Program-made: the position numbers and the translations under genes
Shown: piece by piece, positions 53,070 to 58,396 of the stretch
Numbering within the stretch: position 1 is the stretch's first letter
Layout: each line of letters starts with the position of its first letter
NCBI GenBank assembly: GCA_937981765.1
Contig: CALJOM010000007.1
Span: 1 to 64,000 of the forward strand
DNA: 64,000 nucleotides
Source: an uncultured Bacteroidales bacterium
GTDB taxonomy: Bacteria > Bacteroidota > Bacteroidia > Bacteroidales > Salinivirgaceae
Direction of reading: 5' to 3'
The notes under the pieces: generated by a model
The model's database searches: none
The model's input: only the letters and a program-made list of their open reading frames with translations
What the model was told of the DNA's origin: nothing

Positions 53070-54539
53070 ATGTCTTTTTCACACGAAAATCCCACCAACC
53101 ATACTAATCCTCTACAATTACTATTGCCTCCTAAGATATCCGGCAAGAGAGGGGAAGTTTTTATTAAGTTTCATTCACCAGAAATCATCATAGTTGATTG
53201 TGAGGGAGAACTAACCGATTGTGTTATTGATAAGCTTAACAGTTATTTAAACGACTACCATTATCAATCTTTAGTAAGAAATTATGGACACAACACATTT
53301 ATAATTTTAGATATCAGTCTATTAGCTCCAGTTAACCCCAAACTTCTTGAAAAAATATCCTTTTTACTGGTAATAATCAAGTCGCCAAAAAGTAAAGCCA
53401 AAATTAGGGTTACCAAAACATACGTTCAAATCACTCACTCCTTCGACGAAGCACTTCTATATGTTTTGACATTTAAGCAACAACGGCAGTTCGTATCCAA
53501 AAACGATTATTACACAAATTTTATTCAACGTTGGTTAAAGGAACCTGGGCGTAACTACATCTCCAACTATCGTGTTTTAAGCGATCCTTCCTGGCAAATT
53601 TTTGGAGAAAATCTAAAAATGTATGCCACGATCGACGTTATTGAGGGCAATATTTTGAAACTTTCCCTAAGCGGATTTATTGACAATTTTGCTATTGAAC
53701 GGCTTGTTCACTTAATTAAGAAAGTTCTGCACGATATAGGGATTAATCAAAATCATCACTCCATAGTGTTGATTATTGATTCTAAGAATGTTGTGGGATT
53801 TTCATTGAGGATCTATAATTTTATGTGGGCCATGATTAAACGCGAAATTAATACCGCTTGCGTTTATCTTGTTGCCTCAGGGATTGTAAAAACGTATCAC
53901 TATCTGTTTAAATACTCACAGAATGAAGTTTATCGGAACTGGGAATTAATTACCGATATTGATGCTGCAATTGATAAATCGATTGTAAATCAATTATCAA
54001 TTGATAAAGATTTGCTGGGAGAAAGCGAAACTAATTCGTTCAACCAGGAAAAGAAAAAACAACCTCTTTTTCTTGAAATGTATGAATCTTTAAAGCCACT
54101 AACCATGTCAGGAGATGAACCTCCCACATTGGAATTAATTCAAAATCCTTCAACATTGGGAGATTATATAAAAAATTTGGTAATAAATCTATGGCTTAAT
54201 AATAAGCTAGTTGAGCCTGTTGAGTTCGAAATGCCTCCTGTTTCCCTGAGTTTATTAAACACACTTAATCAAGCAGTTTTATTTTGTCAAGATTCTCGTA
54301 TAGTTTCTGCCAATCGATATTCGGAAACGGTTTGGGGGTACGACCCATTTTTATTACATAATCAACCGTTGGCGGTATTAGTCGAATTAAGTTCAGTTTC
54401 AGACATCATTAAAATGTTATCAAATCAAACAATCGATAATCTAATTACGTATCATTATTATGGTTATTCGTTGCCTATGACTTGTACGAAAATAGAAGCA
54501 GGGAATGGGATGTATTTTTTATCTTTTGTAAACAAATAA
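53070..54539 (+). CDS. Unrecognised protein, STAS-like segments and PAS-like tail
   Basis: No family is recognised with certainty for this 489-residue cytosolic protein, which has no signal peptide or membrane helix. Two regions resemble STAS folds: about 35-130 (IIIVDCEGELTDCVIDKL, then FIILDISLLAPV) and about 185-300 (LKLSLSGFIDNFAIERL, then IVLIIDSKNVVGFSLRIYNF, then ACVYLVAS). The C-terminal 90 residues resemble a PAS domain (LLNTLNQAVLFCQDSRIVSA, then YSETVWGYDPFLLHNQPLAVLV). There is no kinase, DNA-binding or other output domain. Its neighbours include a SpoIIE phosphatase and a hybrid kinase, so an anti-sigma-antagonist-like role is possible but inferred. Confidence 0.6.
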   Translation: MSFSHENPTNHTNPLQLLLPPKISGKRGEVFIKFHSPEIIIVDCEGELTDCVIDKLNSYLNDYHYQSLVRNYGHNTFIILDISLLAPVNPKLLEKISFLLVIIKSPKSKAKIRVTKTYVQITHSFDEALLYVLTFKQQRQFVSKNDYYTNFIQRWLKEPGRNYISNYRVLSDPSWQIFGENLKMYATIDVIEGNILKLSLSGFIDNFAIERLVHLIKKVLHDIGINQNHHSIVLIIDSKNVVGFSLRIYNFMWAMIKREINTACVYLVASGIVKTYHYLFKYSQNEVYRNWELITDIDAAIDKSIVNQLSIDKDLLGESETNSFNQEKKKQPLFLEMYESLKPLTMSGDEPPTLELIQNPSTLGDYIKNLVINLWLNNKLVEPVEFEMPPVSLSLLNTLNQAVLFCQDSRIVSANRYSETVWGYDPFLLHNQPLAVLVELSSVSDIIKMLSNQTIDNLITYHYYGYSLPMTCTKIEAGNGMYFLSFVNK

Positions 54540-54612: not shown

Positions 54613-55173
54613 ATGGTAGTAAAAAACAAGCTCGATGTAACAATTACCTTTCCAAACAAAATATGTAAAGTAATAGTTATTGTTTTACTTTTCTATGGCT
54701 GGAATTCTGCTTTTGTTGTTAATGCTCAAAGTTACGATTCCCTAATGAAAGTCGGGTTCGATTTGCAAGTAATAGGGAAATACGACGAGGCCGTAAAATT
54801 ATACGATCAAATGCTGCAAACATGGATTAACGATCCAAACATTCTATATCAGAAGGCTCTTTGTTTAATGCGAATGTCATATCCGGACCAAGCAGTTGAT
54901 TTGTTTCATAGAATTACTGTTCTGAGGCCTTCTTTTGTTGGAGGTTTTTATGGATTAGCGACGGCTTATGTTGCCCTGGAGAGATGGCTAGAAGCTTATG
55001 ATTTTATTGAAAAAACAATAGCTTTAGAAGATAATAATTCGGAATACTATCTATTGCGTGGTAGAATATTGGTTGGACTAAATCGCACCAAAGAGGCATG
55101 CAAAGATTTTAAAAGAGCCAAAAAAATGGGTAGTTACGATGCCCCATTTTTGATAAAAACCTATTGCAAATAG
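54613..55173 (+). CDS. Exported TPR protein
   Basis: This 186-residue protein has an N-terminal hydrophobic segment (about 18-38, VIVIVLLFYGWNSAFVVNA, cleaved before QSYD). Three to four TPR units follow (GKYDEAVKLYDQMLQ, SYPDQAVDLFHRIT, ERWLEAYDFIEKTI, NRTKEACKDFKRAKK). It is probably a periplasmic adaptor, with no enzymatic signature. It follows the STAS/PAS-like gene by 73 bases, and its TAG stop directly abuts the stop of the convergent hybrid kinase gene. Confidence 0.82.
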   Translation: MVVKNKLDVTITFPNKICKVIVIVLLFYGWNSAFVVNAQSYDSLMKVGFDLQVIGKYDEAVKLYDQMLQTWINDPNILYQKALCLMRMSYPDQAVDLFHRITVLRPSFVGGFYGLATAYVALERWLEAYDFIEKTIALEDNNSEYYLLRGRILVGLNRTKEACKDFKRAKKMGSYDAPFLIKTYCK

Positions 55174-56823
55174 TTATCTTATGTGCCGCATAATTGATGC
55201 GAGCAGTTCTCTGGAACGTATGGGTTTTGTTAAAAAATCGTTTACTCCCAGCCGGAAACATTCCTCCTTTTCATTATTCATGGCAAACGCCGTTTGGGCA
55301 ATGATCGGGGTCTCTCTGTCCGATGAGCGTATTATTCGAATAGCATCATAACCATTCATTACAGGCATCTGCAAATCCATAAGAATAATATCTGGTTTCT
55401 GATTTCTATGAATTTCAACTGCTTCAGCTCCGTTTTTTGCCCAGATAACTTTTGCTTTAGTTGGTGTTAGTAACTCGTTTATAAGAAGATAATTAACCTC
55501 TACATCTTCCACAACAAGTATTGTTTTATCCTCTAATGAGTCGGTTTGGGTTTCAGCAATAGGTTCCTCGAAAAAGGTTTTGCTTATTTTGGTAGCGGGA
55601 ATTTTTACGTAAAAAGTAGTTCCTTTTCCGGTCTCACTTTCAAAACTCAATGATCCGCCAAGTAGCTCAATGATATTTTTGGCCAAAGCTAACCCAAGTC
55701 CGGTGCTGCCGCTTTGACGAGTGTAGTTATTCGTAGCTGTAAAAAAGTCAAATAAGGTTTGCTTTTGTTCTGGCGGAATACCCGGACCTGTATCTTTCAC
55801 ATAAATAATGAGTTCTTTGAGATTTGATAACTTATAACCAAGACTGATAGTACCTGATTCCGTAAATTTGAATGAGTTTTCCAGAAGATTTGATATCACT
55901 TGTTTTAAACGAAAAGCATCGGTATGGATAGATATGTCAGTGTCGGAACTTCTATCAACCACAAAACGAACACTTTCGCTTTTTTTAAGACTTTGGGCAT
56001 AAAAAACCAGTTCGTTAAAAACAGATTGCCAGTTAATCCAGTCTAAAACGTAGTTAAGTTCTCCGGCCTGAACTTTACTGGCATCAATAATATTATCGAA
56101 AATCCTAACCAACGATCTGGCACTTTGAGTAATCAACCCTATGAATTCTTCACGCTGGTCGGTTGTTAAATCGGGGTCGGCTAAAAGATCGCTAAACCCC
56201 ACAATTGAATTAACCGGAGTGCGTATTTCCTGTGACATATTGCTTAAAAAGGCAGATTTAACTCTTACCGCTGCTTCAGCTTTTTTGAGCGCTTCGGCCA
56301 GACTGGTGTATTCAATATGTCGCTTTTGAACTTGTGCGAGGTATTGTGTTAAGGTAGTAAAAAATTCGGTATCAAACTCTCTAAGGCTGAATGTGGGTTC
56401 GAAAATAATTAAAAGCAACCCGGTAAAATCTAAATTATTGATTTTCAGCGTAAAAAAGTTCAAATTATTCAATTCCCATTGATGGCGATCGGCTAAAACA
56501 CGATCCTGAGCATAAACTTCCTTTCCGTTGAAAAATGTTTTTTGATGAACTAGAAGTTTAAATCCTTTGTTGAGACGTAGATTTATTAATTCCGGAAAAT
56601 AGGACAACATTGCTTTTGTTTGACAACAGATTGCTTTTCGACGGAAAGCTTCGGCACTATTATCGTATTCGTATAAACTTAGTGAAATTATTCCAGGATA
56701 ATTTGCATGTAGAAAGGATAAAAATTGGTCGATTTTTTTTTCAATTTGCGATAAGTCAGCAAACAAAAAAATGGTTTCCTTTAAAATGTGATAGTGTTGG
56801 GCAAGTGTAGTACTATTATTCAT
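55174..56823 (-). CDS. Hybrid histidine kinase with H-box His replaced by Gln
   Basis: From ATG 56823 the 549-residue protein has a GAF-like N-terminal sensor region (about 10-170), a short coiled coil and a HisKA-like segment. An HATPase domain follows (N-box VISNLLENSFKFTE, G1 YVKDTGPGIPP, G2 GSTGLGLALAKN), then a receiver domain (ILVVEDVEVNYLL, phospho-accepting Asp about 483 in ILMDLQMPVMNGYD, Lys about 533). In the H-box FLSNMSQEIRTPVNSIVGF the canonical His is Gln (codon CAG, about residue 198), so normal autophosphorylation is not expected. The rest looks intact, so the gene seems functional rather than decayed. A TTG start at 56859 is inside the promoter box and is rejected. Confidence 0.9.
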   Translation of the reverse strand: MNNSTTLAQHYHILKETIFLFADLSQIEKKIDQFLSFLHANYPGIISLSLYEYDNSAEAFRRKAICCQTKAMLSYFPELINLRLNKGFKLLVHQKTFFNGKEVYAQDRVLADRHQWELNNLNFFTLKINNLDFTGLLLIIFEPTFSLREFDTEFFTTLTQYLAQVQKRHIEYTSLAEALKKAEAAVRVKSAFLSNMSQEIRTPVNSIVGFSDLLADPDLTTDQREEFIGLITQSARSLVRIFDNIIDASKVQAGELNYVLDWINWQSVFNELVFYAQSLKKSESVRFVVDRSSDTDISIHTDAFRLKQVISNLLENSFKFTESGTISLGYKLSNLKELIIYVKDTGPGIPPEQKQTLFDFFTATNNYTRQSGSTGLGLALAKNIIELLGGSLSFESETGKGTTFYVKIPATKISKTFFEEPIAETQTDSLEDKTILVVEDVEVNYLLINELLTPTKAKVIWAKNGAEAVEIHRNQKPDIILMDLQMPVMNGYDAIRIIRSSDRETPIIAQTAFAMNNEKEECFRLGVNDFLTKPIRSRELLASIMRHIR

Positions 56824-56921: not shown

Positions 56922-56953
56922 TTTGCTTATCCAATGGTTTTTTCGTACAATTG
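56922..56953 (+). promoter_or_regulatory. Probable promoter of the thiol-disulfide protein gene
   Basis: TTTG (56922-56925), a 20-base spacer and TACAATTG (56946-56953) differ from the consensus by one base in the -7 box. The start site near 56958 favours ATG 56987. Confidence 0.45.
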
Positions 56954-56986
56954 CATCGCATTTCGAAATTCTTTAAAGGTAAACTT

Positions 56987-58396
56987 ATGAGAAGGTTTTT
57001 ACTTATAATTTTTAGCGTAATAATCTCAGCAGTGGGCTTAAATGCACAATACGAAATTAGTGTAAAAATTAAAGGACTTAGTAATGCCCGAATATTTTTG
57101 GCCTATTATTATGGTGATAAAAATTACGTTGTAGATACACTTTTTCTGGATCAAAACGGGCAAGGGGTTTTCAAAAAAAACAAATCCCTAAAAGAGGGGT
57201 TATATCTAATAGTTTTACCATCGAGAAATTATCTGGATATAGTGATTGATTCCAATCAACGTTTTTCCCTGGAATTCGAAAACTCCAGCGATATTCGCGA
57301 AATGGTTTCAAAACTTAAGGTAAAAGGATCACCGGCCAACCAGGTTTTTAAAGACTATCAAACTTTTATGTTTTCTCGCACAAAAGAGATTTTGGATTTA
57401 AGAATTACTGTTAACAACAAGGATAAACCTGAAGCAGAACGACTAAAAGCCCAACAAAAGATTGATAATTTAAACAATGAAATTGAAAAAAAACAGAAAG
57501 AAATTGTGCAAAAATATCCTGAAAGTCTTTTGGCTAAAATAGTGCGAGTGTTTCAGGATATTGACGTCCCCGCCATAGGAACCGAGGTTAACGATATCAA
57601 CGTCGATTCTGTTTTTCAATACAATTATTATAAAGACCACTATTTTGATAATGTAGATTTTTCAGATGAACGTCTTGTTAGAACTCCGGTGTACCATGCG
57701 CGCCTTTCACAATTTTACGATCGGATTGTAATTCCAACTGCCGATAGCATAATAAGAGCTACAGAGCTAATTTTAGCACAGATTAATGAACCGAATGAAC
57801 TCTATCAATACACACTACAATTTGTTTTTAACAAGTACAGTCAAAGTAAATTTATGGGGCACGACAAAATAATGGTTCATCTGGCCGATAACTACTATTT
57901 AGCTGGCAAAACACCTTGGATCACTGATGATTTTAAGAAAAAGCTTGCCGAGCGTGTAGATCGTGTTCGCCCCAATTTGATTGGGAATATGGCCCCATCG
58001 CTCGACAAGGCACAAACTGCCGATGGTGCATTTTACCCACTACATTCACTTAACAGTCGATTGACACTCTTGCTTTTTTGGGATCCGGACTGCGGACATT
58101 GTAAAAAGGAGATTCCTCAAATAATGGAGATTTTTCATAAATATCATCAAAAGGGATTTAATGTATACGCATTTTATACACAAAATAACCGGGAAGATTG
58201 GATTAAGACAATTGACAATCTTCATATGGAGGTGTGGGTTAACGTTTACGATCCCTTCTATTTTACCAATTTTCGGAATCTCTACGATGTGTATTCAACC
58301 CCAACAGTATATTTGCTAGACAAGGACTTTCGCATTGTTGCCAAAAGGTTCGACATTAGTTCACTTGAAGCTATTATTCAGGAATATCTTAAATAG
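56987..58396 (+). CDS. Exported TlpA-like thiol-disulfide protein (DUF4369/DUF5106 type)
   Basis: This 469-residue protein has a signal peptide (FLLIIFSVIISAVGLNA before QYE) and a DUF4369-like beta domain (about 20-110). A helical middle region (about 115-330) fits DUF5106, and a thioredoxin domain follows (about 335-469) with redox site FWDPDCGHCKKEIPQI (CxxC as CGHC). It resembles Bacteroidota periplasmic disulfide reductases of unknown substrate. The start at 56987 replaces an earlier one at 56951, which is in the promoter. The plsY gene begins at its stop codon. Confidence 0.88.
   Translation: MRRFLLIIFSVIISAVGLNAQYEISVKIKGLSNARIFLAYYYGDKNYVVDTLFLDQNGQGVFKKNKSLKEGLYLIVLPSRNYLDIVIDSNQRFSLEFENSSDIREMVSKLKVKGSPANQVFKDYQTFMFSRTKEILDLRITVNNKDKPEAERLKAQQKIDNLNNEIEKKQKEIVQKYPESLLAKIVRVFQDIDVPAIGTEVNDINVDSVFQYNYYKDHYFDNVDFSDERLVRTPVYHARLSQFYDRIVIPTADSIIRATELILAQINEPNELYQYTLQFVFNKYSQSKFMGHDKIMVHLADNYYLAGKTPWITDDFKKKLAERVDRVRPNLIGNMAPSLDKAQTADGAFYPLHSLNSRLTLLLFWDPDCGHCKKEIPQIMEIFHKYHQKGFNVYAFYTQNNREDWIKTIDNLHMEVWVNVYDPFYFTNFRNLYDVYSTPTVYLLDKDFRIVAKRFDISSLEAIIQEYLK

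Follow-up and report, generated by a model that had tools for sequence, protein, structure and literature searches.

When a hybrid histidine kinase carries glutamine in place of its phospho-acceptor histidine, is the gene misread, on its way out, or kept for something other than autophosphorylation? The question is raised by a 549-residue protein of an uncultured member of the Bacteroidales (family Salinivirgaceae), whose gene lies within the 64,000-nucleotide stretch of DNA analysed here (the window) in a source genome of 2.3 Mb and 18 contigs. The answer that we favour, with rather better than even confidence, is that selection has kept the protein as a hybrid pseudo-histidine kinase, acting most likely on the pathway of another kinase. 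To our knowledge, few pseudo-histidine kinases have been characterised.

Domain structure and active-site residues

The kinase frame (55174-56823, minus strand) runs without interruption from an ATG at 56823 to its stop and translates into 549 amino acids, just as the original prediction of an intact frame had it. Pfam places HisKA at residues 189-254, HATPase_c at 302-411 and Response_reg at 435-544, all far over cut-off. The features of the gene are as follows.

55174-56823, minus strand: hybrid pseudo-histidine kinase, GAF-HisKA-HATPase_c-REC, 549 aa (open reading frame, translation, Pfam, orthologues and synteny)
56314-56823, minus strand: N-terminal sensor with a GAF fold, residues 1-170 (model, structural match and weak HMM matches in orthologues)
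56062-56259, minus strand: HisKA (DHp) domain, residues 189-254 (Pfam, and 69-77% identity to sister-genus orthologues)
56230-56232, minus strand: Gln198 (CAG) at the phospho-acceptor His site (codon read; His in 44/44 homologues)
56218-56229, minus strand: Glu199 to Thr202, the rest of the HExxT kinase/phosphatase motif, intact (residue inventory)
55591-55920, minus strand: HATPase_c (CA) domain, residues 302-411, in which all four ATP-site boxes (N, G1, F, G2) are retained (Pfam and residue inventory)
55867-55878, minus strand: N-box Asn316 to Lys319, with Lys319 intact (homologue alignment)
55192-55521, minus strand: REC domain, residues 435-544, with the Asp483 codon at 55375-55377 (Pfam and residue inventory)

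The N-terminal 170 residues match no family in a Pfam search and diverge fast (~30% identity). A structural model of this region (pLDDT 87.5) has as its top structural match the GAF domain 3trc (Z 15.0, rmsd 3.3, 155 residues aligned), and weak GAF HMM matches are found in two of the six orthologues.

The H-box reads FLSNMSQEIRTPVNSIVGF, and the codon for residue 198, read at 56232-56230, is CAG; the Gln first noticed at the acceptor position is thus present in the sequence and, as set out below, in orthologues too. E199 and T202 of the HExxT motif are present, so that the motif reads QExxT. Our residue inventory also agrees with the earlier listing of the ATPase N, G1 and G2 boxes and of the receiver Asp and Lys: the ATP site has N316 and K319, D344, G346 and G348 of G1, F358 and F361, and G375 and G377 of G2, and the C-terminal REC has a complete active site comprising the acidic pair (E439/D440), the Asp (D483), the Thr (T511) and the Lys (K533). 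The protein thus has the domains and the N, G1, F and G2 boxes of a HisKA autokinase but lacks the acceptor His of the H-box, and the DHp region holds no other His in any of the three Gln orthologues described below. Judged by layout it is a hybrid sensor protein; judged by residue 198 it is a pseudo-histidine kinase.

The glutamine is shared by congeners and derived

One clear orthologue was found in each of two congeners (L022, 49% identical, and L023, 45%), both with Gln encoded by CAA. Three genomes of the sister genus each contain one orthologue (L051-L053; 41-46% identical), in which the residue is His, encoded by CAC or CAT. Gene order across the family is marked by two neighbours of the kinase gene.

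54613-55173, plus strand: convergent gene for a TPR-repeat protein, a neighbour in 5/6 family genomes and absent from G001 (synteny marker only)
56951-58396, plus strand: divergent gene for a DUF4369/thioredoxin-like protein, a neighbour in 6/6 family genomes (synteny marker)

The gene order shared across the six genomes identifies the six proteins as orthologues. When wider orthologues beyond the genus were sought in a 149-genome sample of the order (E up to 1e-90), the matches were long multi-domain proteins, apart from a single short open frame close to the end of a contig. Elsewhere in the neighbourhood, the window encodes a 489-aa protein (53070-54539, plus strand) with no Pfam or NCBIfam match; it shares 30% identity with its positional counterpart in G002 and, by eye, shows STAS-like repeats and, at its C-terminus, a PAS-like segment.

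In the tree, the three Gln proteins group together (support 99) and adjoin the three His orthologues at a fork with support 88, and one His-to-Gln change of state suffices. Since both the sister-genus orthologues and all 44 of the further His-type homologues (paralogues) in the tree set have the acceptor His, the Gln is derived, by one change before the split of the genus. Homologue alignment had been put forward as the check on the original prediction, and its outcome, Gln in all three species of the genus that were compared and His in the sister genus, supports its main reading. An essential catalytic residue has accordingly been replaced, by a single change, and the replacement is fixed in orthologues from 3/3 species, which is what marks out a pseudo-histidine kinase; the orthologue evidence comprises six genomes in all, three of them with Gln.

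The Gln codons of the three species are CAG, CAA and CAA, and at the residues that these orthologues have in common, about 57-60% of codons differ synonymously. Read from these alignments, Gln198 has been kept through extensive divergence in the genus and is beyond chance.

Conservation of the remaining protein

Among the Gln orthologues, identity is 70-83% in the DHp domain, 51-64% in the CA domain and 57-68% in the REC, compared with 65-87%, 43-69% and 27-74%, respectively, in sets of His-type orthologues from the same genus. That DHp identity in the Gln set matches that of the His-type sets means that no relaxation is visible in the domain that has lost its acceptor, a pattern that would fit a retained function without kinase activity. 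E199, T202, N316, K319, D344, the G-boxes and REC residues D440, D483, T511 and K533 are invariant in the three Gln orthologues. Residue 198 aside, the near-invariant sites altered in all three are mild (G373S, I380L and F340I/V); D244N and E252Q/D are also found in all three but are common to His orthologues.

These observations fit the earlier view that the protein is no ordinary autokinase, the Gln being fixed in the genus, no second DHp His being present and the rest of the protein being conserved like His-bearing kinases. ATP binding and the uptake of phosphate from another kinase, which that view also envisaged, are putative. Close His homologues with no other divergence had been named as the finding that would speak against that view. 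The sister-genus orthologues are of another kind: the DHp domain is the best kept (69-77% identical to that of the Gln proteins), CA identity is 35-44% and the N-box is altered.

An altered N-box in the His-bearing orthologues

The equivalent of Lys319 is Glu in 3/3 of the sister-genus His orthologues (L051, L052 and L053), a position at which 43/44 homologues have Lys and the other has Arg. In the same three proteins, the equivalent of Phe320 is His, His and Asn, and that of Asn312 is Ile, Gln and Lys. In HK853 and PhoQ structures, the N-box Lys and the aromatic residue touch the ATP phosphates, and autokinase activity may thus be weakened in the sister-genus orthologues. Both halves of the orthologue group look like impaired autokinases, each in its own way, and full autokinase chemistry seems, from these substitutions, to be dispensable in both lineages.

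A bolder reading, which we hold tentatively and consider possible rather than probable, is that autokinase chemistry was dropped twice by complementary routes whilst selection kept the receiver-docking surface of the DHp domain and the REC, the product being a protein given over to phosphatase or phosphate-sink activity, in which the Gln side chain might itself orient the attacking water. If true, the orthologue group would be a natural separation-of-function series leading from hybrid kinase to phosphatase or phosphate sink.

How often is the acceptor replaced?

To count H-boxes, 295 genomes of the order were scanned at the DNA level with a degenerate motif encoding S-H-E-x-R-T-P. This His motif occurs 2577 times; the Gln version has 23 matches, comprising nine real kinases and 14 chance matches outside kinases, so that Gln makes up about 0.35% of such motifs in the order. 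In a scan of the phylum for the Gln version, 16 of the 19 matches were likewise by chance and outside kinases. Asn or Tyr occupies the acceptor position in at least five kinases of the 295 genomes (L141, L144, L147, L157 and L158), a lower bound with three of the listed places left out. The idea that Gln is a uniquely favoured replacement is unsupported, given nine Gln kinases against at least five with Asn or Tyr.

When a tree was built with this residue masked, at least five changes were required to account for the Gln kinases, long branches leaving some placements unsure. Translations show a degenerate ATP domain in L088, L096, L116, L129 and L130/L131 and an intact one in the group of the window protein and in L117/L118/L119; the Gln kinases with an intact ATP domain are the more informative kind. 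L117, L118 and L119 (H-box at about locus position 1500) are TPR-HisKA-HATPase_c-REC proteins with a Gln acceptor and intact ATP boxes which, at about 43% identity, are common to two families of the order and represent another conserved lineage of Gln pseudokinases, independent of the first. L116, L129, L141, L157 and L158 have a kinase-like DHp domain with Gln or Asn as acceptor, L116 and L129 combining a degenerate ATP domain with an N-terminal REC; the five are possibly one pseudo-histidine kinase family spread over the order. In a further kinase-like protein, L050 of G001, the residue that aligns with the acceptor is Asn (AAT), and the surrounding stretch reads FLSNVTNEMVNPFASILGLS.

What might the protein do?

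With no acceptor His, the usual autophosphorylation is impossible, and the residues argue strongly that autokinase activity is absent. That the protein would function in trans can be said with moderate confidence, but a choice among phosphate sink, phosphatase and heterodimer control could be made only weakly from its sequence. The intact REC favours an action of the RetS type, and the intact CA domain favours nucleotide-dependent conformational control. In the mechanism that we propose, the GAF sensor would drive a DHp-CA module which, having Gln as its acceptor residue, would be unable to phosphorylate itself but would still dimerise and dock receivers via the highly conserved DHp surface, its conformation set by ATP binding. 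A partner pathway would then be affected through the protein's own phosphorylatable REC, acting as phosphate sink or relay, and/or through the QExxT motif that remains, acting as a transmitter phosphatase. No stand-alone HPt partner was found: the three HPt matches in the genome sit in long ORFs (692, 1315 and 788 aa).

Amide side chains orient water in CheZ and NarX-type phosphatases, and Gln198 might stand in for His in the same way during phosphatase catalysis. Two engineered proteins bear on the mechanism. In MA4377, H497Q was made to prevent autophosphorylation, and the fused REC still took phosphate in trans (PMC11784639). In HK853, H260A diminished phosphatase activity, His being able to contribute to phosphatase catalysis (PMC5727384); QExxT may thus be a weak phosphatase, which counts against our preferred reading.

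Alternatively, the protein may be an allosteric pseudokinase in the manner of DivL, its DHp-CA platform sensing a phosphorylated response regulator and switching a partner kinase; neither phosphatase nor sink chemistry would be involved, and the REC would be a secondary contact. The top structural match of the modelled DHp-CA module is indeed DivL (4q20; Z 25.2, rmsd 3.1, 224 residues aligned), and no region of the protein is better kept than the DHp surface. However, there are solved structures nearer by sequence than DivL, the structural rank may mirror domain arrangement alone, and the full REC active site, in a domain that DivL lacks, suggests that phosphorylation matters here. We regard this alternative as unlikely, albeit the strongest of those considered.

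Less likely again is a trans-kinase role, in which the Gln subunit would pair with a different kinase and use its own intact ATP domain to phosphorylate that partner's His. In its favour, 3/3 Gln orthologues retain the ATP-site residues, better than do the His orthologues of the sister genus, and kinases can form heterodimers, as ChrS does with HrrS (PMC9491836). Mixed DHp dimers are usually specific, however, and no candidate partner with a matching DHp was found; moreover, the sister-genus orthologues have retained the opposite half.

Very improbable is a protein that is still an autokinase, with autophosphorylation shifted to Ser197, a Tyr or an acid. Its CA and REC domains are intact, as this would require, but there are no DHp His residues at all in the three proteins and Ser197 is ordinary in His kinases. 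We know of no HisKA kinase with a relocated acceptor.

We give slightly less credence still to neutral loss of the His in a decaying gene, to which the single base between CAG and CAC and the ~30% identity of the N-terminal sensor might point: frames are intact in three species at 45-49% identity, the Gln is fixed despite synonymous change, and the DHp, CA and REC domains are conserved like those of His-bearing kinases. The early loss of function first entertained for this gene is contradicted by these intact Gln orthologues in three assemblies, and their CAA codons in the congeners rule out recent decay and sequencing error alike. An error of sequencing or assembly at the Gln198 codon, which the original prediction had also allowed for and which a single base's distance from a His codon might favour, has virtually no chance of being right when three independent assemblies, 45-49% identical, carry Gln, two of them via the other codon.

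On the reading that we prefer, nature has supplied in three species what the laboratory makes as a kinase-dead His-to-Gln mutant, all the other catalytic residues being intact. Comparison of the Gln orthologues with their His-bearing sister orthologues would probe what role is left to a hybrid kinase once autokinase activity is gone. There is also a warning here for domain annotation: every HMM scores far over its cut-off, so that proteins of this sort are called active kinases.

Comparison with known systems

Pseudo-histidine kinases are an already known kind of protein. A literature search turned up no hybrid kinase that naturally carries Gln at this site, although one may still have been published. 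The same residue has been lost in other Bacteroidota kinases with Gln, Asn or Tyr in the H-box (L117/L118/L119, L116/L129, L130/L131, L141, L144, L147 and L157/L158), but these differ from the window protein in being independent Gln lineages, many with a degenerate CA domain, and in L117-L119 the Gln extends across families.

RetS of Pseudomonas aeruginosa is a hybrid unable to autophosphorylate that drains phosphate from GacS, dephosphorylates the GacS REC via the Thr of its HExxT motif and inhibits the autophosphorylation of its partner (PMC5992135). The window protein resembles it as a REC-bearing hybrid, predicted to lack autophosphorylation, in which the H-box context, the HExxT Thr and the REC Asp are kept. 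RetS, however, has the His, its ATPase domain is degenerate, and it carries a pair of RECs and a membrane sensor; the window protein combines an intact ATPase domain with Gln for His, a single REC and a GAF sensor, and is thus distinct from RetS.

DivL of Caulobacter crescentus has a conserved Tyr at the site with N, G1, F and G2 boxes otherwise intact and senses a phosphorylated regulator (PMC4211667). Shared with the window protein are a non-His acceptor conserved across species, the retained boxes and the closest DHp-CA fold. DivL, however, is defined by PAS sensors, the absence of a REC and Tyr or Ala at the site, and acts on CckA and DivK in alphaproteobacteria, whereas the window protein has a GAF domain, a REC and Gln. 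By sequence other kinases are nearer, and we claim no special kinship with DivL.

In its HisKA-HATPase_c-REC layout and its sequence, the protein is like hybrids of the BarA, TorS, ArcB and LuxQ type; these, however, possess the acceptor His, frequently together with an HPt domain, and the window protein scores below the NCBIfam equivalog cut-offs.
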